A stretch of DNA of 11,986 nucleotides, taken from assembly GCA_004195045.1 (NCBI GenBank), contig SGBC01000005.1, positions 1 through 11,986 of the forward strand. Reading direction: 5' to 3'. Origin of the DNA: Candidatus Acididesulfobacter guangdongensis. Its GTDB lineage: Bacteria; SZUA-79; Acidulodesulfobacterales; Acidulodesulfobacteraceae. Shown here piece by piece: positions 341 through 11,986 of this stretch. The notes beneath the pieces are model-generated. The model made no database searches and had not been told where the DNA came from. It saw only the letters and a list, made by a program, of their open reading frames with translations. The translations under genes were made by a program, and so were the position numbers. Position 1 is the stretch's first letter. Each line of letters opens with the position of its first letter.

Positions 341-613
341 ATGGACGATATTGTTATTGCTTGGTATAAAAAAGACGAATACGACAAATTATTAAGAGTC
401 ATTGATGATAAGGATTCTATGCCTAGTGTTTATGAAGTTTGGCTTGAAATTGCGACTGCTACAATGCAAAATTTAAGGAAAGAAGGGTATAATGTTAAAA
501 AAGTAATTGTAAACATTGATGAACTGGTAGATTGGTGCAACGTTATGAAAAAAGAAAATATTGCTAAAAATAGAGCTTTGTTTGTTAGTTTAAGGGCAAA
601 TAAAAACTATTAG
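341..613 (+). CDS. conserved-looking hypothetical protein, 90 aa
   Basis: Starts at ATG 341 and ends with TAG 611-613. No strong ribosome-binding site is visible (the upstream sequence is AT-rich). The protein is soluble and mostly helical. The pattern IAWYKKDEYDKLLRVIDD, then YEVWLE, then a Gly-Tyr-x-V-x-KV element and a DELVDWCN motif near residue 57, looks like a compact family found scattered in bacterial accessory DNA; this is from memory and I cannot name its function. It lies 14 bp before the next gene, so the two are probably co-transcribed. Coding status is likely; function unknown. Confidence 0.6.
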   Translation: MDDIVIAWYKKDEYDKLLRVIDDKDSMPSVYEVWLEIATATMQNLRKEGYNVKKVIVNIDELVDWCNVMKKENIAKNRALFVSLRANKNY

Positions 614-627
614 AAAGAGGTGTCGAA

Positions 628-1023
628 ATGTTTGAAAATTTTAAATTAAAATCTGTAAAAAAAAAGATTGCTGAAATTGAAGCACAAATTGTATCTAATC
701 AAAAAGAGATAATTAGAATGGAAAAAAAGTTATCGGAAATACCTGAAAATATGGAATTCTTAAAAAAAATACTTAAGATAACGGACGAAAGAACGCAGGA
801 ATATATTAACGATAACGGTCATGATGATTTCAGCAATAAAATAATAGACGCTTCTTTAAACAGAAGCGCAAAGATTTACTATTTAGAAGAAGATTTGAAA
901 AGAATACCTGAAATAATTAAAAGTTTGAAAGCAGAGTTATTTGATTTGGAAAAAGAATACAAAAAAGAAAAGTTAAAAGAAAAGGTTTATTCTTTAACGG
1001 AAGGAAAGCAAATTTCCGTATAA
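628..1023 (+). CDS. coiled-coil hypothetical protein
   Basis: 131 residues. The ATG is preceded by a good ribosome-binding site (AAAGAGG at 615-621). Two long charged heptad-like helices are visible: about residues 6-50 (LKSVKKKIAEIEAQIV...) and 88-125 (LEEDLKRIPEIIKSLKAEL...). They are separated by a segment containing the NDNGHDDFSNK turn. There is no signal peptide, membrane segment or catalytic motif. The shape is that of an antiparallel coiled-coil scaffold or accessory protein. It sits in the same-strand run from 341 to 2906, probably an operon. I do not recognise the family. Confidence 0.65.
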   Translation: MFENFKLKSVKKKIAEIEAQIVSNQKEIIRMEKKLSEIPENMEFLKKILKITDERTQEYINDNGHDDFSNKIIDASLNRSAKIYYLEEDLKRIPEIIKSLKAELFDLEKEYKKEKLKEKVYSLTEGKQISV

Positions 1024-1061
1024 AATATATATAAAATATTAAAGAAAAAGAGGGGGGAGGC

Positions 1062-1319
1062 ATGAAAACTACGAGTAAGGTTAGAAATTATATTTTCTAC
1101 GCATCGCTTATAGCTTTTCTTGTTGCGACTATAATGTCGATTATACACGGAGTCAAATACGGCTCTATTTTTGAGAATGGCAGTTTTTCCGGAACTAAAT
1201 TTGAACTGCTTATCTATCTCGTGTCTATAGGTGGCTATATCTTATCGTGGCTCGGTTGGCTTGGTATATTGATATTAGCATATATATGGAAAAAGCTATA
1301 TGAAAATCCAGAATTATAA
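1062..1319 (+). CDS. small integral membrane protein
   Basis: 85 residues, with a very strong ribosome-binding site just upstream (GGGGGGAGG, about 1050-1060). A hydrophobic helix spans about residues 10-30 (NYIFYASLIAFLVATIMSII), followed by a polar loop and a second long hydrophobic stretch from about 48 to 77 that could hold one or two helices. The short polar ends suggest an inner-membrane protein with two or three passes. Its last 20 bp overlap the start of the next gene, so the two are likely translationally coupled. Similar small membrane proteins are common in conjugation-type clusters, but nothing here is specific enough to name it. Confidence 0.62.
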   Translation: MKTTSKVRNYIFYASLIAFLVATIMSIIHGVKYGSIFENGSFSGTKFELLIYLVSIGGYILSWLGWLGILILAYIWKKLYENPEL

Positions 1320-1824
1320 CGAACCAAAATTATATAAAATCGCAAAAGAAATAACTGAGCTCATTCTCCGGATTCCAGGGAATAAACGTATTACCTTTAT
1401 ATACGGTTCTTCCATAGATAAGACGGAAAAGGCAAATGTCTTTTTATCGCCTGAAGGCGTGTTTTGCGGTAGTTATAGCGAGTTTATGGCGGAGGAAGGG
1501 ATAAAACGTGCGATGCCGGAAATCGTTCGTAGAAATCGTTTGGCTGCCGGAGACAGCTTTAGGAATTTTTTGCAAAAGGTCATAACTTGTGCTTTCGGAA
1601 ACATAATAATAAGTCAAGAATTAGGTATTGAAACGGATAGAAAAGGTAATGTTCGCCCCATATCTCAGAGAAAAATATATGGGATAAAGTTATACGAAGG
1701 GAATTGGCAGCCGTTGTCAAAAGAAGAAGCCGAGGAAATTCATGCCCAAGAAGCGGAAGACATGAAACGTATAGGCAAGAGTTCTTTTGTATATTCTGAT
1801 TTGTCGGAATTCCTTAAAAAATAA
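1300..1824 (+). CDS. hypothetical protein, 174 aa
   Basis: The start ATG at 1300 lies inside the preceding membrane-protein gene (20-bp overlap), with GGAAAAAG just upstream, so translational coupling is likely. The protein is soluble and charged. Visible blocks are ITFIYGSSIDKTEKANVF (about residues 31-48), GVFCGSYSEFMAEEGIKRAMPEIVRRNRLAAGD (about 53-85), and a glutamate-rich helix KEEAEEIHAQEAEDMKRI near 141-158. There is no signal peptide or membrane helix. I do not recognise the family. Base composition matches its scaffold neighbours, arguing that it belongs to the host element rather than to the AT-rich cargo. Confidence 0.65.
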   Translation: MKIQNYNEPKLYKIAKEITELILRIPGNKRITFIYGSSIDKTEKANVFLSPEGVFCGSYSEFMAEEGIKRAMPEIVRRNRLAAGDSFRNFLQKVITCAFGNIIISQELGIETDRKGNVRPISQRKIYGIKLYEGNWQPLSKEEAEEIHAQEAEDMKRIGKSSFVYSDLSEFLKK

Positions 1825-1845
1825 AATCTTAAAGCGGAGATTATA

Positions 1846-2385
1846 ATGTTAACCCAAACCGCATTAGACCTTGACGGCGTTATATTCGACTACGAGAAAA
1901 CTTTCAGGAAGAAAGCCGCCGAACTTGGTCTAAATATTTCAATCAAACGTCCCGAAATATACAATATGGCGGATAGATACGAGATTACGGCGGAGCAGGT
2001 CTCCTTAATCAATTCAAGAATTGACTTTTCCGATATGGAAGTTTTTGACGAGGTTATAAACTTAAAACATTATATTAAGGATATCAAATGCTTTATAACG
2101 TCAAGCCCGAAAGAAGCTTTGCATTTGAGAAAATTAAACGTATCTACAGTATTCGGCAAAGACATTCCCGTATATCATGCCGATACGAAAGAAAAGCATA
2201 GAATTATTTCAGAACTTGGAATAAAATATTTCATAGACGATTATAATTTGGCAATTCATCATATAGAATTAAACTGTCCTGAGTGCAACGCTTATTGGCT
2301 CAATAGAGGTTATGGAGATTTTAGTCTGCCGGAGCCGGAGAATAAGATAAATAGTTTGACGGAATTTTTTAAAATTAAAAAATGA
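1846..2385 (+). CDS. HAD-superfamily phosphatase (5'-nucleotidase-like)
   Basis: 179 residues, with a clear ribosome-binding site (GCGGAG) before ATG 1846. HAD motifs are in order: motif I DLDGV with the paired aspartates D8 and D10; motif II ITSSP with T85/S86; a lysine-bearing segment TKEKHR (K115/K117) as motif III; motif IV IDD at 131-132. The short inserted cap and the FITSSP/FIDDY pattern resemble the cytosolic 5'(3')-deoxyribonucleotidase-type branch. The family hydrolyses phosphate monoesters through an aspartyl-phosphate intermediate and needs Mg2+. The substrate cannot be read from the sequence. Its stop codon overlaps the start of the exported-protein gene (ATGA at 2382-2385), so the two are in one operon. 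Confidence 0.75.
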   Translation: MLTQTALDLDGVIFDYEKTFRKKAAELGLNISIKRPEIYNMADRYEITAEQVSLINSRIDFSDMEVFDEVINLKHYIKDIKCFITSSPKEALHLRKLNVSTVFGKDIPVYHADTKEKHRIISELGIKYFIDDYNLAIHHIELNCPECNAYWLNRGYGDFSLPEPENKINSLTEFFKIKK

Positions 2386-2906
2386 TTAAAATAATTTTTA
2401 AAATATTTATATTTGCATTTATTTTGTTTTCTGCAAATAAGGTTTTTGCTTTAGGGATTTTTAATATTCCTTACAACCAGTCAGACTCTAACTTTAACAA
2501 GCTTGCAATGCGGGTGTATAATTTAAATAGTCCTTATACTTATACCAGCGGAGCTTATACCTATAACGCTTTGCCGCTAACGACGACTATGTCAGGGTGC
2601 AAGCTGATAAGCATAATCTGCAGGACACAGGGCTTCCCGAAACCGGTTTATTGGGCTGTGGAAAATTATAAGATTTGCTCCGGCAATATAGCGGAAGTTA
2701 AAAATACCAATATGGCGGGTTGGGATAACTTGCCAAACGGGATTAAATCTGTTATAAATAATACTATCCAAGAATCAAGGCAATACGGCAAAGCAACGGC
2801 TAATTATTACGGATACAGGATAATAGCAAAAACAGGAGTTTACGTCGGGACGGTATTCGTATATGTGCTTAATGGGATAAAGTTGGAAGCGATTATGAGG
2901 TTTTAA
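2382..2906 (+). CDS. exported protein E1 (signal peptide, unknown family)
   Basis: 174 residues beginning at an ATGA overlap with the HAD gene. Residues 1-23 form a Sec signal peptide (basic start, hydrophobic core, VFA just before a likely cleavage site). The mature part is about 150 residues, rich in Tyr, Asn and Thr. It has cysteines at 73, 80 and 99, a YTYTSGAYTYNALPLTTTM segment, and a C-terminal stretch GVYVGTVFVYVLNGIKLEAIMRF with strand character. It is probably periplasmic or surface-associated. I do not recognise the family. A second, frame-broken copy lies at 5317-5849 and differs at only about 20 of ~150 mature residues by eye. In both copies a methyltransferase gene follows directly. 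Confidence 0.75.
   Translation: MIKIIFKIFIFAFILFSANKVFALGIFNIPYNQSDSNFNKLAMRVYNLNSPYTYTSGAYTYNALPLTTTMSGCKLISIICRTQGFPKPVYWAVENYKICSGNIAEVKNTNMAGWDNLPNGIKSVINNTIQESRQYGKATANYYGYRIIAKTGVYVGTVFVYVLNGIKLEAIMRF
2448..2906 (+). repeat. direct repeat E, copy 1 (mate 5386-5849)
   Basis: The mature-protein part of the exported gene occurs twice in the same orientation, at 2448-2906 (459 bp) and 5386-5849 (464 bp). The 5-bp length difference is fully explained by one extra TGGGG unit in the second copy. The signal-peptide region upstream is much less conserved. The two copies bracket the first methyltransferase/nuclease pair plus the P1 gene, a repeat unit of about 2.9 kb. Confidence 0.9.
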
Positions 2907-3004
2907 AGATAAAAGTATAAGTATAAATTCCAAAAGCTATTGATATTTTTGCAAAAGATAATAAAACTAAAAACATAAAAAAATAATAAAGATATGAAAT
3001 TAAT

Positions 3005-3877
3005 ATGAATTCTACAGAAAATAGCACAAAAGAATACGACTATGATATTCAAAGAAATAAAGAAATAATGAATAATAATATTATTGATATAGGTTTGTCT
3101 ATTAATAAAGTTTATAACGAAAATTGCATTAATATATTGAAAAAAATAAACGATAATTCAATAGATTTAACTCTAACTTCTCCACCATACGACAATCTAA
3201 GAAATTATAAAAATAATATTTTCGAAATATGGAATAAAAACATATGGGAACAAGTCATATACGAACTTTACAGAATAACAAAAACAGGTGGCATAGTAGT
3301 TTGGGTCGTAGGCGATGCTACGATTAACGGTAGCGAGACTTGTTCAAGCTTTAAACAAGCACTTTACTTTAGAGAAGTAGGATTTAATTTACATGATACG
3401 ATGATATACCAAAAACAAAATCCTATACCGCAATTTAAAGCGCACAGATACACAAATTCGTTTGAATATATGTTTGTATTCAGCAAAGGCTTGCCAAAGC
3501 ATGGAAAAATTATAGAAGTAGAAACCAAACAATGTGGGCGTATAGATATAAACTATAGAGGACAAGTAACAGCAGACGAAATATATATAGGAAAACCTAA
3601 AAAAATAGTTAAATCAAGTAAAATAAAATCAAATATATGGATATATAGCCAAAACAACGGAATAGACAGAAAAATAAAACACAAAGCACAATTTCCCGAA
3701 CAACTTGCAAACGATCATATAATAAGTTGGAGCAATGAAGGTGATATAGTTTTAGACCCATTTGCAGGATCAGGAACTACGCTTAAAGCAGCAAAACTAA
3801 ATAAAAGAAATTATATAGGAATTGAAATTAATAAAGAATATTGTGAAATTATTAAAAAAAGATTGGAATTTTTTTGA
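3005..3877 (+). CDS. beta-class DNA methyltransferase (N4-cytosine or N6-adenine)
   Basis: 290 residues. The catalytic motif IV TSPPY (58-62) comes first and the AdoMet-binding motif I DPFAGSGTT (251-259) comes near the C-terminus, followed by IGIEI (271-275). This order defines the beta class of N6/N4 amino-methyltransferases. The SPPY form occurs in many N4-cytosine enzymes, but the modified base cannot be settled from sequence. The FPEQLA element (230-235) is also typical. Translation may start at ATG 3005 or, without the low-complexity N-terminus, at ATG 3068, which has AAAGAA upstream; the core begins about residue 35. It converges with the next gene, a probable cognate nuclease, with 6 bp between the stops. 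It is much more AT-rich than its flanks (13 G/C in 3601-3660), suggesting recent acquisition. It should protect host DNA from the partner nuclease. Confidence 0.9.
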   Translation: MNSTENSTKEYDYDIQRNKEIMNNNIIDIGLSINKVYNENCINILKKINDNSIDLTLTSPPYDNLRNYKNNIFEIWNKNIWEQVIYELYRITKTGGIVVWVVGDATINGSETCSSFKQALYFREVGFNLHDTMIYQKQNPIPQFKAHRYTNSFEYMFVFSKGLPKHGKIIEVETKQCGRIDINYRGQVTADEIYIGKPKKIVKSSKIKSNIWIYSQNNGIDRKIKHKAQFPEQLANDHIISWSNEGDIVLDPFAGSGTTLKAAKLNKRNYIGIEINKEYCEIIKKRLEFF

Positions 3878-3883
3878 TAATAT

Positions 3884-4675
3884 TTATATGGCTTGAATAT
3901 AATTATAAGCATAGTAAATATTTGAAAAAGCTTTCAGGTTATCGCTTAAATATAAACCATATTTTTTTAGAAATGACTGTATATCAATATTTTTATCTTT
4001 AATTGATGTTAGCATTGGATAAAATAACTCATTATTCTCCAATAATAAACATTGGTTTTTAGTGTCTAATGTTGTATTATTAGAAATTTGATGAAATAGA
4101 ATATAAGCTTTTCCATTAAGTTTTGAAATAAAATTTTGTTGAACTAAATATTGTTTAGGATTAACTTTATTACAACGGAATTTAAACGTTTTAAAAATGT
4201 TTTCTATAGCCGATTGAATATTTACAGTATCAAATAAATAAGTTGCTTCGATAGATATAAGTTTTTTATTATTACTTAATTCTAATGAATCTATATCACA
4301 AGTAAGACAATTTAATGGTCTGGTTTCTAATCTATATTGCCAATAAGAATTAATTAAATCATTATTGCTAATATTTTTAGACAAAGTTAAATTTAACATA
4401 CTACTTATTTTAGTATTATCAATTTTATATGGAGAATTTTTTTGAAAACTTATTTTAATACAATTAATTGGAATACTGGAAATTAATTGACAAATTTGAT
4501 TAAAAAGAATAGATTGTGGATTATTTATATTGTTTTTTATTTCAAATACAATAGATATTGGTTCTGCTTTAAGATTATAATTAATTTGGGGCCATATAAA
4601 TTCTCCATAATTATTAATAACTGATATTCGCCAGTTTTCAAAAACTTTTACTTTATTGGTTTGAATATTTTTCAT
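3884..4675 (-). CDS. putative cognate restriction endonuclease, PD-(D/E)xK-like
   Basis: 263 residues on the minus strand, convergent with the methyltransferase, a common arrangement for type II systems. I do not recognise a named family. The segment RPLNCLTCDIDSLELSNN followed by KKLISIEATYLF (about residues 118-147) has the spacing and hydrophobic pattern of a PD-(D/E)xK core (D-I-D, about 11 residues, hydrophobic strand, then E-x-K). However, the lysine position is threonine (IEAT), so this is a variant core or a misassignment. A possible promoter on its own strand is TTTACT-N17-TATATT within 4684-4712. It is extremely AT-rich (10 G/C in 4501-4560). The role as the cutting partner is inferred mainly from gene position; confidence that it is a gene is higher. 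Confidence 0.55.
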   Translation of the reverse strand: MKNIQTNKVKVFENWRISVINNYGEFIWPQINYNLKAEPISIVFEIKNNINNPQSILFNQICQLISSIPINCIKISFQKNSPYKIDNTKISSMLNLTLSKNISNNDLINSYWQYRLETRPLNCLTCDIDSLELSNNKKLISIEATYLFDTVNIQSAIENIFKTFKFRCNKVNPKQYLVQQNFISKLNGKAYILFHQISNNTTLDTKNQCLLLENNELFYPMLTSIKDKNIDIQSFLKKYGLYLSDNLKAFSNIYYAYNYIQAI

Positions 4676-4721
4676 TTTTTTAATATATCATTTTTTTATT
4701 TATTAGTAAAATAAAATAATC

Positions 4722-5306
4722 TTGCTTTTTATTTTTAATAGTTCTAAATCCAAACGCATATTTATTCTCCCCGTTATTGCCGTTTTTGCCGGCGTGCTTT
4801 TGCTTTATCCCTTTTTCTCCCGCAATTTTACCGATATTTATTTTGCCGTAACTACCGCTTTTTCAACCCATAAATTAATTATCCCTGACGGTTTTAACTT
4901 TAAATATCTCATTCTTTTCTCCGGATTAATTTTAATGTCTTTGACGGATATGCTTTTTGAAAGAATACACAGATTTATCCCCATATTTTTAATGCTTGCG
5001 GGCGTGTTATTCGCCTACATCGCAAATAAGCCCCTTATTAACGCTTTTGAGGCGTTGTTAATTGGTTTAGGCTTGTTTATCCTAATTGATATTTTAAAGG
5101 TCGGTTCTTACGCCGCAGGCGACGTTTTATCGGCAGGGGCGATAGGAATATTTGTCGGGAGAGAAAATATAATAATAATTTCGGTTTTGGCGATTATTTT
5201 AGGAAAAATAATTATGAATTTCAGCGCCAAGATAGACGGAGTGTTCGACAAGTCAAAAATTAAGCAGTTTCATTTTGCTTTAGATATTGATTTTTTATTA
5301 AGATAA
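4722..5306 (+). CDS. P1: truncated prepilin-peptidase-like membrane protein, probably decayed
   Basis: 194 residues from a weak TTG start. It is a close copy of the intact gene at 7925-8548. It keeps the A24 features: a membrane-boundary LTDMLFERIHRFIP segment and an AAGD variant of the GxGD motif, with two aspartates expected to be catalytic. Aligned with P2, the ancestral ATG corresponds to ATT at 4731-4733, so the native start is lost. The tail departs after QFHFA and ends in LDIDFLLR, deleting the last membrane helix (about 25 residues). Function is doubtful. It starts 46 bp from the divergent putative nuclease and is followed after 10 bp by E2. A TTG or ATT start could still give some product. 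Confidence 0.7.
   Translation: MLFIFNSSKSKRIFILPVIAVFAGVLLLYPFFSRNFTDIYFAVTTAFSTHKLIIPDGFNFKYLILFSGLILMSLTDMLFERIHRFIPIFLMLAGVLFAYIANKPLINAFEALLIGLGLFILIDILKVGSYAAGDVLSAGAIGIFVGRENIIIISVLAIILGKIIMNFSAKIDGVFDKSKIKQFHFALDIDFLLR
4731..5282 (+). repeat. direct repeat P, copy 1 (mate 7925-8475)
   Basis: Homology between the two prepilin-peptidase-like genes starts essentially at the codon corresponding to the start (ATT 4731 here, ATG 7925 in the mate). It runs to the shared QFHFA end at about 5282 and 8475. Roughly 27 of about 185 residues differ by eye. Same orientation, about 3.2 kb apart. The copies bracket E2 and the Dam/nuclease pair. Confidence 0.9.
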
Positions 5307-5316
5307 GGATAAAAAA

Positions 5317-5849
5317 ATGATAAATAAATATAAATTGATATTATTATTAGCGTTGTTTTTTATATTCCAAACAACGCAATCTTTTGCTTTCGGCATTTTT
5401 AACATTCCATACAATAAATCAGATTCTAACTTCAACAAACTTGCAATGCGGGTTTATAATTCCGGCAGTCCTTATACTTATACTTACGGAGCCTATACCT
5501 ATAACGCATTGCCTATAACAACGACTATGTCAGATTGCAAAATAATAAGCATAATAAGGCGCACTCAGGGCTTTCCTAAACCGGCATATTGGGCAATAGA
5601 AAATTATAAGATATGCAACGGAAACATCGCAGAGGTTAAAAATACCAATATGGTGGGGTGGGGTGGGATAATTTGCCAAAAGGAATAAAACCTGTTATAA
5701 ATAATACTATTCAAGAGGCAAGGCAATACGGCAAGGCAACGGCTAATTATTACGGATACAGGGTAATAGCAAAGACGGGAGCTTACGTCGGGACGGTATT
5801 CGTTTATGTGATGAACGGGATAAAGCTGGAAGCGATGATGAGGTTCTAA
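5317..5849 (+). pseudogene. exported protein E2, frameshifted copy of E1
   Basis: The second copy of the exported gene has a good ribosome-binding site (AAGGAT about 8 bp before ATG 5317) and its own signal peptide (hydrophobic core, then SFA). The reading frame breaks at the TGGGG run 5654-5667 and stops at 5688. The rest of the protein continues in another frame from about 5658 (GWDNLPKGIKPV...) to the stop at 5849. Removing a single TGGGG unit restores NMVGWDNLP, the exact counterpart of E1's NMAGWDNLP, so this is one gene with a +5 bp slippage. The shortened product would be 123 residues and lack the conserved C-terminal third. It follows P1 by 10 bp. Function unknown. Confidence 0.85.
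5654..5667 (+). repeat. TGGGG slippage tract in E2
   Basis: The tract reads TGGGG TGGGG TGGG, nearly three tandem copies of a 5-bp unit inside the coding sequence. E1 has the non-repetitive equivalent GCGGGTTGGGA and is in frame. Loss of one unit puts E2 back in frame, so the tract acts as a potential on/off switch or marks a recent slippage mutation. Confidence 0.85.
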
Positions 5850-5852
5850 ATG

Positions 5853-5880
5853 TTGATATTTTTAAAGTAAATTTTATAAA
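5853..5880 (+). promoter_or_regulatory. candidate promoter for the Dam/nuclease pair
   Basis: TTGATA (5853-5858), a 16-bp spacer and TATAAA (5875-5880) sit 15 bp before the methyltransferase start codon. That leaves only a few bases of leader, which fits the lack of a visible ribosome-binding site. The AT-rich background makes chance matches likely. Confidence 0.35.
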
Positions 5881-5895
5881 TAAATTCAAATCCAT

Positions 5896-6753
5896 ATGCC
5901 TATTTTAAGTTTAGTAGAATCAAAAACAGATGCAAACCTTACCAATCCTAAGCCTTTCATTAAGTGGGCCGGGGGGAAAAGACAATTAATCGAAGAACTT
6001 ATAAGTTTGTTTCCCGCAAACTATAATAGATATTTTGAACCATTTATCGGCGGCGGCGCATTATTCTTTGCTATTCAACCTGAAAATGCTTATATATCTG
6101 ATATAAACCCGGAACTCATTAATCTTTATAATGTCGTAAAAAATGATGTAGATTCCTTAATCGAGGATTTACGCAGATATAAAAATACGGAAGAAGAATT
6201 TTATAAAATAAGAAATTTAGATAGAAAACCTTCTTACAAAAAATTTAGCAAAGTCAGAAAAGCAAGCCGTTTTATATATTTAAATAAAACTTGTTATAAT
6301 GGTCTATATAGAACTAATTCGGATGGATATTTTAACGTACCGTTCGGTTTTTATAAAAATCCAAACATAATAGATGAAAAAAATTTAAAAGTATGTAGCG
6401 AGTTATTGAAAAAAACCGAAATTGCATTGTCGCCTTTTTCGGCCATAGAAAGTAAGATAAAAACCGGCGATTTTGTTTATTTTGACCCTCCTTATATGCC
6501 TATAAGCAAAACATCGTCTTTTACTAAGTATTATAAGGACGATTTCGACGTTGATGCCCAGTTTGAACTTAAAGAGTTATGCGACAGGCTCACTAAAAAA
6601 AGAGTTTATTTTATGTTATCAAATTCTTATAGTGAATTAATCTTAAATTTATATAAACAATATAATATCAAGAAAATAAGGGCTATAAGGGCAATAAACT
6701 GTAAGGCGGCTAAAAGAGGCGCTATAGACGAATTAATTATTACTAATTATTAA
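5896..6753 (+). CDS. dam: Dam-family DNA adenine methyltransferase (likely GATC)
   Basis: 285 residues, the usual length for Dam/DpnII-type alpha-class N6-adenine methyltransferases. The motif order is alpha class: KWAGGK (23-28) and EPFIGGGALFF (48-58) for AdoMet binding, ISDIN (67-71), the recognition-side segment LNKTCYNGLYR (129-139) with NVPFG (147-151), and catalytic DPPY (197-200). The last segment KRGAIDELIITNY matches the family end. These features are those of enzymes that methylate adenine in GATC, but specificity is inferred. No strong ribosome-binding site precedes ATG 5896. The nuclease gene follows 13 bp downstream, so the pair forms a restriction-modification module. It is cargo between E2 and P2. 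Confidence 0.9.
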   Translation: MPILSLVESKTDANLTNPKPFIKWAGGKRQLIEELISLFPANYNRYFEPFIGGGALFFAIQPENAYISDINPELINLYNVVKNDVDSLIEDLRRYKNTEEEFYKIRNLDRKPSYKKFSKVRKASRFIYLNKTCYNGLYRTNSDGYFNVPFGFYKNPNIIDEKNLKVCSELLKKTEIALSPFSAIESKIKTGDFVYFDPPYMPISKTSSFTKYYKDDFDVDAQFELKELCDRLTKKRVYFMLSNSYSELILNLYKQYNIKKIRAIRAINCKAAKRGAIDELIITNY

Positions 6754-6766
6754 AAAGGTATGAAAA

Positions 6767-7924
6767 ATGGCAGGATATATATTTAATTTAGACAGTGAAG
6801 ATTCATTAAAGTTGTATATAAACAATGGAATATATGCAACAAAAATAAATTATCCAGTTAATAGATGGAGAGACTTTCAGGAAGCTACTTTTGCGGATTA
6901 TGCTACTATGAAAGCGGGTGATAATGTTTATTTTTTTATTAAAAGAAATATTTATGGAATAGGAGAACTTACTAATATTAATAATGATTGTAAATATTCT
7001 AATTTTCTATCTATTAAAGATCCGCTTAAGGTCAAATATGATGAAATCAACAAAGAACTTTTATGGAATGAAAATATAATTGACAATAAATTTCAGCCAT
7101 GGGTTTGTTTCTTTAAACCTGCGCCATATTTTTTTACGAAAGGAATAGATATGGATGATGTTCTTGCTTCTAATCCTTCTGCTTTTAAAATGCTTAGGGC
7201 TTTTTGGAAGGTTTCGTTTATAAAATTTGACGACGAAGAGAATCAAGCATTAAAGAATATTATACTTAAGTTTAATCAAAGTTGTTTACAAGAACACACA
7301 TCGGATTGTATTTATACCACAAATTATAAATATTTCCACCAAGAAATTGACAATAAAGTTAAAAATAATGATTATATATTAAATTTAAGTACAATTTTAA
7401 GTTGTAATGACGAAGATGGTAGGTTGACACACGAAATGGCGTTAGAAGCTGGCATTTTATATCAATTATCTTATAGATACCCCAAAACTATTGATATATT
7501 AGGTGAATGGGATTATTTGTCTCACCAAGTAGTAGCTTCTCCTTTTAAACCTATTGATTATATGGATAAAATGGATATATTTGGTTTAAAGTTTATAACT
7601 GGTTTTGCTCCTATGAAATCGAAATATGTTGTTATAGAATTAAAAAAAGATTCAGGCTATAATCAAGATATAGAACAATTAATGAAATATGTCGATTGGG
7701 TTAAAGACGAATATTGTCATGGAGACTATTCGATGATTGAATCTTTTTTAATTGCGTTTGATTTTCCTGAAAATATTAATGAATATAAGAATAACTATGC
7801 GGTTAGAAATTACATTATAGGAAGGAGGCCTGCAAAATCGTCTAAATGGAATAATCTAAATATAGTTAAATATAAATATAATAAAGAACTAAATGAAATA
7901 GAATTTATTAAGTTTAACGAATAA
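6767..7924 (+). CDS. restriction endonuclease: N-terminal EVE-like domain + C-terminal PD-(D/E)xK nuclease
   Basis: 385 residues, with ribosome-binding site AAAAAGGT before ATG 6767. Residues about 2-110 (AGYIFNLDSED, WRDFQEATF, MKAGDNVYFFI, YGIGELTNI) look like an EVE/PUA-type fold, a domain known in other nucleases to read modified bases. The middle is unassigned. The C-terminal part has a PD-(D/E)xK arrangement: a helix with E227, the D of YMDKMD (270), and IELKK with E291 and K293, followed by helical IEQLMKYVDWVKDEY. The partner Dam-type methyltransferase is 13 bp upstream. It could be the cutter of a GATC-type type II system or a modification-sensing nuclease. Its stop codon abuts the P2 start (TAA then ATG at 7922-7927). 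The domain calls are by eye. Confidence 0.65.
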   Translation: MAGYIFNLDSEDSLKLYINNGIYATKINYPVNRWRDFQEATFADYATMKAGDNVYFFIKRNIYGIGELTNINNDCKYSNFLSIKDPLKVKYDEINKELLWNENIIDNKFQPWVCFFKPAPYFFTKGIDMDDVLASNPSAFKMLRAFWKVSFIKFDDEENQALKNIILKFNQSCLQEHTSDCIYTTNYKYFHQEIDNKVKNNDYILNLSTILSCNDEDGRLTHEMALEAGILYQLSYRYPKTIDILGEWDYLSHQVVASPFKPIDYMDKMDIFGLKFITGFAPMKSKYVVIELKKDSGYNQDIEQLMKYVDWVKDEYCHGDYSMIESFLIAFDFPENINEYKNNYAVRNYIIGRRPAKSSKWNNLNIVKYKYNKELNEIEFIKFNE

Positions 7925-8475
7925 ATGTTTAATTTCGCCATATCTAAGCGCATATTCATTCTCCCCGTTATTGCCGTTTTTGCCGGCGTGCTTTTGCTTT
8001 ATCCCTTTTTCTCCAGCAATTTTACCGATATTTATTTTGCCGTAACTACCGCTTTTTCAATTCATAAATTAATTATCCCCGCAGGTTTTAATTTAAAATA
8101 TCTCGTTCTTTTCTCCGGATTAATTTTTATGTCTTTGACCGATATGCTTTTTGAAAGAATACACAGGTTTATCCCTATATTTTTAATGCTGGCGGGCGTG
8201 TTGTTCGCTTATATGGCGAATAAGCCCCTTATTAACGCTTTTGAGGCGTTAGGCACAGGTTTAGGCATATTTATCCTAATCGATATAACAAGGCTCGGTT
8301 CTTACGCCACAGGCGACGTTTTATCGGCGGGAGCGATAGGGGCGTTCGTAGGGATAGAAAATATAATTATTATTTCGATATGCGCTATAATATTAGGAAA
8401 GCTAATAACTTATTTCAGCGCAAGATTGGACGGGATATTTGATAAAAGCAGGGTAAAACAGTTTCATTTTGCTTT
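7925..8475 (+). repeat. direct repeat P, copy 2 (mate 4731-5282)
   Basis: This is the intact member of the repeated prepilin-peptidase-like pair. After about 8475 it continues with its own C-terminal helix (VPVLFLVTALLFVLTLYL), which copy 1 has lost. No third copy of E follows: cargo begins immediately after the gene. Confidence 0.9.
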
Positions 8476-8548
8476 TGTGCCGGTGTTGTTTCTGGTGACG
8501 GCTCTTCTGTTTGTATTAACGCTGTATTTGCCCTTTCAAGCCTTTTAA
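7925..8548 (+). CDS. P2: prepilin-peptidase-like (A24-type) membrane protein, intact copy
   Basis: 207 residues, very hydrophobic, with about six membrane helices. Two aspartates at membrane edges fit the A24 aspartic peptidase pattern: D73 in SLTDMLFERIHRFIP and D131 in SYATGDVLSAGAIGAFVG, a variant of GxGD with Ala at the first Gly. A24 enzymes cleave leader peptides of type IV prepilins or related proteins in the inner membrane. The N-terminal zinc-cysteine methylation domain of PilD is absent, as in the short preflagellin/TadV-like forms. The first aspartate-to-IP spacing (nine residues between D73 and I83) is longer than usual, so family assignment is probable rather than certain. The ATG directly follows the nuclease stop with no clear ribosome-binding site. 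P1 at 4722 is a damaged copy. Confidence 0.7.
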   Translation: MFNFAISKRIFILPVIAVFAGVLLLYPFFSSNFTDIYFAVTTAFSIHKLIIPAGFNLKYLVLFSGLIFMSLTDMLFERIHRFIPIFLMLAGVLFAYMANKPLINAFEALGTGLGIFILIDITRLGSYATGDVLSAGAIGAFVGIENIIIISICAIILGKLITYFSARLDGIFDKSRVKQFHFAFVPVLFLVTALLFVLTLYLPFQAF

Positions 8549-8608: not shown

Positions 8609-8649
8609 CCGTCCAGTTAAAAACGGAAAAGCCGTCCAGTTAGAACGGA
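8609..8649 (+). repeat. two tandem 18-19 bp repeats with inverted ends (operator-like)
   Basis: CCGTCCAGTTAAAAACGGA (8609-8627) and CCGTCCAGTTAGAACGGA (8632-8649) share all but two positions, with a 23-bp period (about two helix turns). Each copy begins CCGT and ends ACGG, so each could form a small hairpin or bind a dimeric regulator. They sit between the candidate promoter and the start codon at 8688. The GC-rich words stand out in an AT-rich leader. Possible roles: repressor operator, RNA structure that affects translation, or a mobile-element scar. Confidence 0.8.
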
Positions 8650-8687: not shown

Positions 8688-9380
8688 ATGGTTCAGGATA
8701 ATTTATTAAATTTGATACTTGAAATTAATAAAGCCACCGCAAATGATTTATTTAGAATGTACACTGCGAACGGCGGACCTAATTCTACCACTATATTATC
8801 GGGATTGATATTTCCGAAATATCGAAATGATAATAGTAAGATGACTTCTGAATTAGAATTAAGAATAAGCGAACAAGAAGCGAGAATGCTTTATTGTTTT
8901 AACTTAAATAATAATAATAAATATAAATACTTATATTCCATTGAAACGCCAACCAGTAAAATTTATAATTTTACCAAACTAGTGAGGAAAGACAATAACG
9001 GCAAACAAGGAAGAAGCGCACTTTCTGATTTAAGTATTTATGATTCATCAGAAAATAAGTTGCTTAACGTTGAGTTTAAGGCTCACAATCCGGAACAAAG
9101 AAGCTACGATAAAGACATAGAAAAACTTATAGGAGAAGCAGTTTGCGGCAATTGGTTTCATTTATTGAAAAATGCGGATAAAGGAACTATTCAGTCTTTA
9201 AATGATAAATTTAAATCTGCTCTAAATAAAATTAATCCCGAAAATATTCTTAAAGAGAACAAAGATTTATGGATTCTTTTCTTCATTGTTATTTTAGATA
9301 GAAATGAGACAAAACATAAACAATTAAGTTTTAGTCAGATTAGCGATAAAAATTATATAGAAAAATTATTTTCTGAATGA
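8688..9380 (+). CDS. putative PD-(D/E)xK nuclease-family protein
   Basis: 230 residues from ATG 8688 (weak AAAAG upstream). The core is visible: an N-terminal helix ELELRISEQEARMLYCF (residues about 55-71), the strand YSIETPTSKIYNF (83-95), SALSDLSIYD with D114, and LLNVEFKAHN with E129 and K131. D114, then E129-x-K131, is the PD-(D/E)xK spacing. The ETPTSK.Y.F and SD(L).IYD...NVEFK wording looks familiar from uncharacterised defence-region proteins, but I cannot name the family. A long helical C-terminal half follows. No methyltransferase is adjacent; an HNH nuclease gene follows by 36 bp (or 3 bp if a TTG start is used), so the pair may be one system. More AT-rich than the next gene. Confidence 0.6.
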   Translation: MVQDNLLNLILEINKATANDLFRMYTANGGPNSTTILSGLIFPKYRNDNSKMTSELELRISEQEARMLYCFNLNNNNKYKYLYSIETPTSKIYNFTKLVRKDNNGKQGRSALSDLSIYDSSENKLLNVEFKAHNPEQRSYDKDIEKLIGEAVCGNWFHLLKNADKGTIQSLNDKFKSALNKINPENILKENKDLWILFFIVILDRNETKHKQLSFSQISDKNYIEKLFSE

Positions 9381-9416
9381 TAATTGGTAAACGCAAAATA
9401 TAACCAAATTTATATA

Positions 9417-10130
9417 ATGGCTATTGAAGATTTTAACACCGACCCAAACATCCAAATTTGCTATTTATGCGGGACGTCTCTTTCCGGGGAAACTAACCGA
9501 GACCATGTTCCGCCGCAACAACTGTATGCCGATGCAATAAGGAAAAGCCATAATCCTAATCTCCTTACCCTGCCGGTCCATAAAAACTGCAATAGTTCTT
9601 ATTAGTTCGACGAAGATTATTTTGCCGCCACGTTAATGCCGCTTGGACTCGGTTCTTATTCCGGCAATGCATTTTACTCGGAAACGCTTTCTAAATTTAA
9701 ACAAAACAAAAAAGTAGGCTTAATCCGCAAAATTTTAGGCGAGTTTGAGCCTCGTCCATCTGGATTATATCTGCCGAACAATAAAGTAGCAAAACGGTTT
9801 GACGGCATGCACCTTAGACGTATAACATGGAAGATTATTCGGGGGCTATATTTTTATCATTTTAAAGAATTTATTCCGGAAAGAATAAAAAAGGATATCA
9901 GGATTGTCTCGCCAGGGGAAGAACCGCCGCCGGATTTCCTTGAGATTCTTAACGAACCGACGCATGGACAATACCCTGGTGTTTTCGACTATAGGTTTAT
10001 CGCTTTTCCCGAACTTCACAATTCCCATTACTGGGCAATGCTTCTATGGGATAGAATAATTCTAATAACCGTTTTCCAATATCCGGCATGCGAATGCGAT
10101 ATATGCGTTGCGCCGCTGGTATCGGTTTGA
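9417..10130 (+). pseudogene. HNH endonuclease gene interrupted by an in-frame amber codon
   Basis: One frame, about 238 codons from ATG 9417 (a TTG at 9384 is an alternative), interrupted only by TAG at 9603-9605. Before the stop come the zinc/HNH elements: CYLCG (two Cys), RDHVPPQQLY with the catalytic-type DH, and LPVHKNCNSSY with the metal-binding H..CN. After the stop the frame continues FDEDYFAATLMPLGLGS to the end at 10130, with a second CECDIC near the C-terminus. Related HNH proteins have Gln at the stop position (NSSYQ.DE.YF), so a single CAG-to-TAG change explains it. Without suppression only the HNH half (about 62 residues) is made. It is more GC-rich (33 G/C in 9901-9960) than the upstream nuclease gene, so the two may have different origins. 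Confidence 0.78.
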
Positions 10131-10810: not shown

Positions 10811-11512
10811 TTATATATCCTGCCAAACCCATTTAACCTTTCCTATTATAAAACTTTTTCCTGTTTTCAGTTCTTCATTTGAAATTTCAATATCATTATA
10901 TATTATATTCTTGGATTTTAAAACTATACCTTTTTGGTTTTTTGTAACATATCTTATTACTGGTCCTTCATAGGGCAAATAAACACAATATATATGCCCA
11001 GAAATAGGGATCCTATTTTTGCTATCTGTATCTATTCCGACATAAGCATTGTTTTTGATGTAAGGATCCATTCCTTTATCGTTTATTTTTAGGACTTCTA
11101 TTGATTGTGAATTAAATTCTTGTGAAATCATTAAAGTACCTATTGGTTTTATTCCAGGTAAATCGGCTAATTTTTTTATATTGTCAAATGCATTCATAGG
11201 AATAGTTTGATATTTTAATATATTAGGAAGAGATATATCAATAAATGATAAAATTGACGTTTCATAAAATGGTATATTATTTTCACTTTTTGTAAAAAAA
11301 TAAGAAATATCAACTTTAAAGACCTTTGCCAATTTTATTAAACATTCGATTGTAATACCCTTACCTTTTTCTTCCATCCTCCAAATAGTCATTTTACTTT
11401 TATTGATTGCCTTAGCAAGTTCTTCTTGTGAAAGTCCCTGCTCTTCTCGTTTTTTTTTTATTAATGAGGCAATTCTTGCTTTTATTTCTATATTTTCAGT
11501 TTCTGATATCAT
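10811..11512 (-). CDS. XRE-family repressor with inactive S24-like C-terminal domain
   Basis: 233 residues. The N-terminal helix-turn-helix (about 10-72) shows the Cro/CI pattern: KKKREEQGLSQEELAKAINKS, MTIWRMEEKGKGI, LIKLAKVFKVDISYFF. The C-terminal part (about 122-230) has the fold of S24/LexA-type domains: INDKGMDPYI, GHIYCVYL, IRYVT, then GIVLKSKN and IIGKVKWVW. The nucleophile position of the family motif (G-D-S-M-x-P) is Gly147 here, and the lysine position is Arg187, so self-cleavage is not expected; the domain probably dimerises or senses a ligand. It is divergent from the gene at 11648, across a region with a 13-bp inverted repeat that is its likely operator. No ribosome-binding site is visible; a TTGTTT-N17-TATAAA promoter (11549 down to 11521) would give an almost leaderless mRNA. 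Confidence 0.85.
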   Translation of the reverse strand: MISETENIEIKARIASLIKKKREEQGLSQEELAKAINKSKMTIWRMEEKGKGITIECLIKLAKVFKVDISYFFTKSENNIPFYETSILSFIDISLPNILKYQTIPMNAFDNIKKLADLPGIKPIGTLMISQEFNSQSIEVLKINDKGMDPYIKNNAYVGIDTDSKNRIPISGHIYCVYLPYEGPVIRYVTKNQKGIVLKSKNIIYNDIEISNEELKTGKSFIIGKVKWVWQDI

Positions 11513-11647: not shown

Positions 11648-11884
11648 ATGGAAGAAAATATATTTTGTAAAAAAACTGATCAAAGAAATGAAAGCGATGT
11701 AGAGCAATTTTTTGCCATAAGATTATTAAAAGAACTTGGGTTTAAAGACAGTAATATTTTAACTAAATTTACAATTCCCAAACATCTTATCGGTAAAGGT
11801 GCAAAAAAGAAAGAACATAGACCAGATTATGCGATAAAAATAGGAAATACTTGGGTGATGATTGTTACAATGACATACCCGTAA
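11648..11884 (+). pseudogene. truncated N-terminal nuclease domain of a restriction enzyme (HsdR_N-like)
   Basis: 78 residues. The start of a large restriction protein is recognisable: RNESDVEQFFAIRLLKELGF, then ILTKFTIPKHLIGKGAKKKEHRPDYAIKIGNTWVMIV. It resembles the PD-(D/E)xK N-terminal domain of type I HsdR subunits and of fused methylase-nuclease enzymes (RPDY with D60, then a strand WVxxxxAK). The sequence stops matching right after WVMIV, exactly where the catalytic E/D-x-K should follow. The last residues (TMTYP) come from the opposite strand of a MarC-type gene. The protein therefore cannot work as it stands. It has a good promoter, operator and ribosome-binding site, suggesting that an intact version exists elsewhere or that the join is artificial. 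Confidence 0.7.
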
Positions 11885-11986
11885 ACCCCAACCAATATCA
11901 AAAGAGTTGTCAAAACTCCGGGTCCGACTATTAACGGAACTCCGATAGGCACAACGCCTAAATCAGCATTATTTAAAGATTTTTTC
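11827..11986 (-). pseudogene. MarC-family membrane protein fragment
   Basis: The minus-strand frame is open from the window edge to a stop at 11829-11827. The first part reads VVPIGVPLIVGPGVLTTLLILVGVYGYVIVTI, a good match to the MarC/UPF0056 signature (VPL..P.L.GPG..TT..). After about 11867 the frame (ITQVFPIFIA) is simply the reverse strand of the truncated nuclease gene. So only about 120 bp are real MarC sequence. MarC proteins are multi-pass inner-membrane proteins of unclear role. Confidence 0.7.

Follow-up and report, generated by a model that had tools for sequence, protein, structure and literature searches.

SXT has an F-type T4SS and a CI-like repressor. In the SXT/R391 family of conjugative elements, variable DNA containing many restriction-modification (R-M) genes is held in fixed intergenic slots, the hotspots HS1-HS5, and the left edge of HS2 falls immediately after the traA stop codon (PMC2791158). 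Red-like genes promote the formation of hybrids among the SXT/R391 integrative and conjugative elements (PMC2786100). In the antiviral hotspots of P2 and P4, two conserved genes of the mobile element enclose small defence cargo that turns over at a high rate (PMC9122126).

The locus described here comes from Candidatus Acididesulfobacter guangdongensis and contains two copies each of an exported-protein gene, E, and a prepilin-peptidase-like gene, P. We propose, with a probability of about 0.72, that E and P mark the boundaries of an exchangeable slot for defence cargo on the conjugative elements of this phylum, and that the locus is two such slots in tandem. Its likeness to the SXT/R391 family, which is one of functional parallels only, lies in equally exact cargo edges, a phage-type annealing protein and an exonuclease carried on the element, an integrase, and the formation of hybrids by recombination. 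Unlike those of SXT/R391, the boundary genes are not tra genes and are duplicated and dispersed through genomes; the cargo is almost only defence, and the slots can be stacked. As in the P2/P4 hotspots, small defence cargo is flanked by a pair of conserved genes on a mobile element, but the best-resolved host element of the E-P slot is conjugative and not a phage. Integron arrays share with these slots co-directional, exchangeable cargo, and tyrosine recombinases occur near some of the loci. The E-P cargo, however, is not made of single genes and its ends generally lack an attC-like site, a repeat being present at some junctions only, and the boundary genes are duplicated together with the cargo.

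The window, which is the whole stretch of DNA analysed, is the entire contig C5 of the source genome (11,986 bp). It contains the following features.

341 to 2385, forward strand: conserved left flank, small genes of 90, 131, 85, 174 and 179 aa, common to conjugative-element loci
2382 to 2906, forward strand: E1, the left boundary of slot 1, intact exported-protein gene with a signal peptide and two invariant Cys
2927 to 2978, forward strand: junction repeat in degenerate form, between E1 and cargo 1, 81% match to its copies at other slot junctions
3005 to 3877, forward strand: cargo 1, N6_N4_Mtase-type DNA methyltransferase (PF01555, E 4.9e-48; CcrM-like partial match)
3884 to 4675, reverse strand: cargo 1, convergent gene of a 263-aa protein, a putative restriction enzyme by position alone
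4722 to 5306, forward strand: P1, damaged A24 (prepilin-peptidase-like) gene, homology at 4731-5289
5317 to 5849, forward strand: E2, E copy frameshifted by a 5-bp TGGGG insertion
5896 to 6753, forward strand: cargo 2, Dam-family adenine methyltransferase (PF02086, MethyltransfD12, E 2.3e-67; TIGR00571, E 5e-90)
6767 to 7924, forward strand: cargo 2, 385-aa putative restriction endonuclease, partner of Dam, weak NucS_C match
7925 to 8548, forward strand: P2, intact A24-peptidase-like membrane protein (PF01478, E 6.7e-8), right boundary of slot 2
10811 to 11512, reverse strand: CI/LexA-like repressor (HTH_3 and Peptidase_S24), member of cluster c14, to which the G011:C2 repressor also belongs

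The original prediction, made from the letters of the window, had described same-direction repeats of E and P around unrelated cargo, and this description was borne out. E1 and E2 are offset by 2938-2943 bp with 81-89% nucleotide identity over 281 and 194 nt, and P1 and P2 by 3194 bp with 90% identity over 300 nt, in both cases far above chance. The copies are similar over most of their length, as had been stated, with the qualification that the two inner ones are damaged. The first codon of P1 is ATT instead of ATG, an upstream TTG (4722) is needed as its start, and its C-terminus is lost, the last 20 or so residues being replaced. E2 is split by the insertion into two open reading frames, 5317-5688 and 5658-5849. 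We propose that the inner P and E were free to decay, an intact copy of each gene being still present. The cargo edge at P also lies where it had been placed: the stop codon TAA of the 385-aa protein gene (7922-7924) abuts the ATG of P2 (7925), and the homology of P1 begins at the equivalent codon, 4731. P belongs to the Peptidase_A24 family; D73 and D131 are invariant in 15 copies, and with both catalytic aspartates of a GxGD-type peptidase kept, P is a predicted A24 prepilin peptidase. The structure models of E and P were too poor to interpret (pLDDT 46 and 43), and a sequence search of the PDB gave nothing meaningful.

The two cargo blocks, a N6_N4 methyltransferase with the convergent 263-aa protein and a Dam-family methyltransferase with the 385-aa putative endonuclease, are unrelated. 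The Dam pair also follows E in L132 and G013. The 385-aa protein had been called a nuclease; its junction with P2 stood, and its only family match is a weak, NucS_C-like one. The same label is unproven for the 263-aa protein (3884-4675) and for a 230-aa protein (8688-9380), since neither has a match in Pfam, NCBIfam or PADLOC. After P2, at 8610-8645, there is a short repeated motif, CGTCCAGTTA..AACGG, and about 80 nt around it match L118, L183, L170 and the sequence after HsdR in L147. The region 9384-10130 encodes an HNH-like protein (CxxC...HVPPQQL...CN) with an in-frame stop at about 9603.

About 80 loci were fetched for a comparison of the E and P neighbourhoods. The comparison disclosed one variable slot between the two genes, filled mostly by R-M or other defence genes, as the original prediction had anticipated; these modules lie after E and before P, mostly on the same strand. 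The cargo comprises type I-like, II, IIG, ISP and III R-M systems and Druantia-like genes. The modules adjoining P are of type ISP (L107, L108, L111), type IIG (L110) and type III (L109, L114), a methyltransferase-specificity fusion (L105), MT-A70 (L106), LlaJI plus AAA (L116) and DruA/NurA/HerA (L117). Type I systems (L118, L120, L164), type III systems (L113, L129, L130, L148), GmrSD (L139) and nucleotidyltransferase/HEPN-like pairs (L141, L149) follow E with no P immediately downstream in view. The locus thus belongs with the defence hotspots of mobile elements, in which two constant genes flank defence cargo that differs across genomes. An E-P pair without cargo, the other arrangement that had been envisaged, was not seen in the about 80 loci. 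Degraded P fragments occur inside or near slots. In L105 two cargo modules are separated by a remnant of the 5' end of a P gene, and in L119 a P gene in two pieces (2386-2550 and 7479-7767) flanks an E-cargo unit in permuted order. The polarity of the cargo is also seen in a blind count of three methyltransferase families in 19 genomes: a DNA methyltransferase gene lies within 3 kb downstream on the same strand in 21 of 46 E copies against 0.40 expected, a comparison that ignores the lack of independence among related copies. One methyltransferase was found upstream and one on the opposite strand.

E is present in 20 of 30 genomes of the host's GTDB phylum (the Candidatus Acidulodesulfobacterales group), often in multiple copies and at up to 14 places in a genome, and P in fewer. 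The records that bear E are uncultured metagenome-assembled genomes, one of them named Candidatus Acididesulfobacter. Neither gene was found convincingly outside the phylum, nor was either found in viral contigs (IMG/VR) or plasmid collections, and no E was found in phage records. In the source genome, further E copies lie on contig C3, and an E fragment on C1 adjoins a type I R-M operon. As about half of the E copies have no methyltransferase after them and several lie in ordinary chromosomal surroundings, E may also exist independently of the slot. Longer proteins (300+ aa) with an E-like C-terminal domain are encoded at L148:14453-15499, L178:1500-2486 and L160:9273-10193.

In pairs of loci that carry different cargo and are 92-95% identical up to E, some over 1.4 kb, the identity ends at the E stop codon, the break falling 3-6 nt past the last E codon in all eight of eight pairs. 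On the P side the break lies at position -1 or -6, or else within the gene, at about +144; the homology between P2 and L105 starts at -1 of the ATG. P is mosaic (PHI p=0.001), its 5' and 3' parts being uncorrelated, and E is marginally so (PHI p 0.05-0.09). The co-inheritance of E and P is weak (Mantel r 0.38, p 0.03). The frameshifted E2 allele with its TGGGG insertion also occurs in L110 and L143, so that one allele is found in three genera, followed in each by a different downstream module. Between the window and L110 the 3' halves of this E copy hardly differ, while the 5' halves agree at about 80%, and the cargo past the stop codons is unrelated.

The exactness of the edge at the E stop would also be expected of a site-specific cassette system, in which a tyrosine recombinase inserts cargo just past E, as happens in integrons or at the 3' ends of genes. 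Tyrosine recombinases do lie within 6 kb of 15 of the 50 full-length E copies, among them a type of about 225 aa upstream of E, and a junction repeat of about 40-60 nt, made of units of about 20 nt (CAAAAGTTATTGAAACTCTA...), recurs, always in slot orientation, at module junctions in about 8 loci (including L116:828, L132:921, L161:13991, L111:4450, L105:8355 and L110:18863). The repeat is, however, absent from most junctions, no sequence is common to all cargo ends, the 3' ends included, and breakpoints also fall inside P. An att-like site at the 3' end of E was considered and dropped, as synonymous sites there are not more conserved than elsewhere in E (p=0.24). Such a system is on the whole an improbable source of the slots. 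A bolder reading, which has a low but appreciable probability, regards E as a portable landing-pad gene whose stop codon, together with the junction repeat, makes the next base the entry point for R-M cassettes; if it were true, one phylum would build and stack its restriction repertoire by a dedicated cassette system. The junction repeat is a lead on how cargo first enters the slot. The exact edges at the stop codon could also come from selection that keeps E intact.

It is quite unlikely that E and P are linked to defence systems by function, for instance as an envelope-level exclusion pair, instead of by recombination. Such a link would agree with the purifying selection on both genes (dN/dS 0.14 for E, median, and 0.24 for P), the catalytic aspartates of P and the polar order of E, cargo and P. 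The cargo, however, is mechanistically unrelated between slots, the frameshifted form of E has been kept in three genera next to R-M systems of different kinds, and E often occurs without P. The tandem in the window might in turn be two single slots, separate in reality, that were merged in assembly. The first 123 nt (1-123) and the last 127 nt (11860-11986) of the window are exact copies of unrelated chromosomal genes on other contigs, of flhA/flhF-region (C3) and marC (C1) sequence. These end copies are assembly overlaps and show that the assembly graph is tangled here. An open reading frame at 11648 is truncated by the contig end. The longest exact repeat within the window, however, is 57 nt, too short for the repeats by themselves to misdirect a long-k assembly; a similar double array, E-RM-P-E-RM-P, occurs in another genus (L110; G016:C104). 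The damage, moreover, is specific to the inner P1 and E2. A merge is accordingly very improbable.

The nature of the host element is clearest in a relative, where the slot lies on one 138-kb contig, G011:C2, with F-type TraC/G/H/E/K, a TrwC relaxase, a coupling protein, an integrase and a UmuC-like polymerase. RecT, an exonuclease, SSB, helicases, a CI-like repressor and a primase are also present, so that phage-type replication and repressor genes stand together with conjugation genes. The element of this relative is an integrative and conjugative element with an F-type T4SS. A phage origin, which the RecT, primase and CI-like genes had suggested, was dropped once the same element proved to carry T4SS and relaxase genes. 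By eye, IscB-like and TnpB-like genes can be recognised in it as well (L126:9645-11027 and L126:5754-7037). The genes to the left of the G011:C2 slot match the left flank of the window, and the clusters of this flank (c12, c8, c9, c75 and c3) are in part found again, similarly ordered, upstream of the E genes of L105/L126, L110, L111, L128 and L162. TraC is found in three genomes of the family, and RecT lies 10-16 kb from E in four contigs. The original prediction had placed no transposase or integrase in view of the array; this part of the picture changes, as the array is not free-standing and its flanks are genes of an SXT-like conjugative element, which has an integrase, RecT and an exonuclease. 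Since no TraC and no RecT were found in the window's own genome, we infer the conjugative origin of this contig from its flanking genes only. Given that absence and the chromosomal overlaps at both ends, the window is a fragment, probably of an SXT-like conjugative element.

If E and P bound a slot of this kind, any R-M or other defence module could be accommodated between the stop codon of E and the start of P, in most cases pointing the same way as both genes, and the cargo would probably be read through from E to P. When two elements meet, recombination in the flanks they have in common, made up of E, P and the adjoining genes, would exchange the cargo, probably with the aid of the RecT/exonuclease pair of the element, in the manner of the lambda-Red-like genes of SXT/R391 elements. 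The window may have arisen by a tail-to-head fusion of two filled slots. Slot swapping by homologous exchange is the best-supported of these steps. The original view of the scaffold genes as homology arms is upheld to the extent that the flanks bound a variable slot, that P, and less so E, is mosaic, and that the L110 array exists, but it leaves the exact edges at the E stop unaccounted for.

The idea of a cassette slot thus stands, with the difference that the slot is part of a conjugative element, like the hotspots of SXT/R391. The shared frameshift allele and the P mosaics make the mechanism of exchange testable from sequence, and, with E or P as bait, defence modules can be listed, some of them still unnamed. 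Hotspots of the SXT type with exact cargo edges would extend to a distant, uncultured, acid-living phylum, where they are restriction-specialised and stackable, and in this group of acid-mine bacteria almost any type of DNA-cutting antiviral system would be swapped into the E-P slot.
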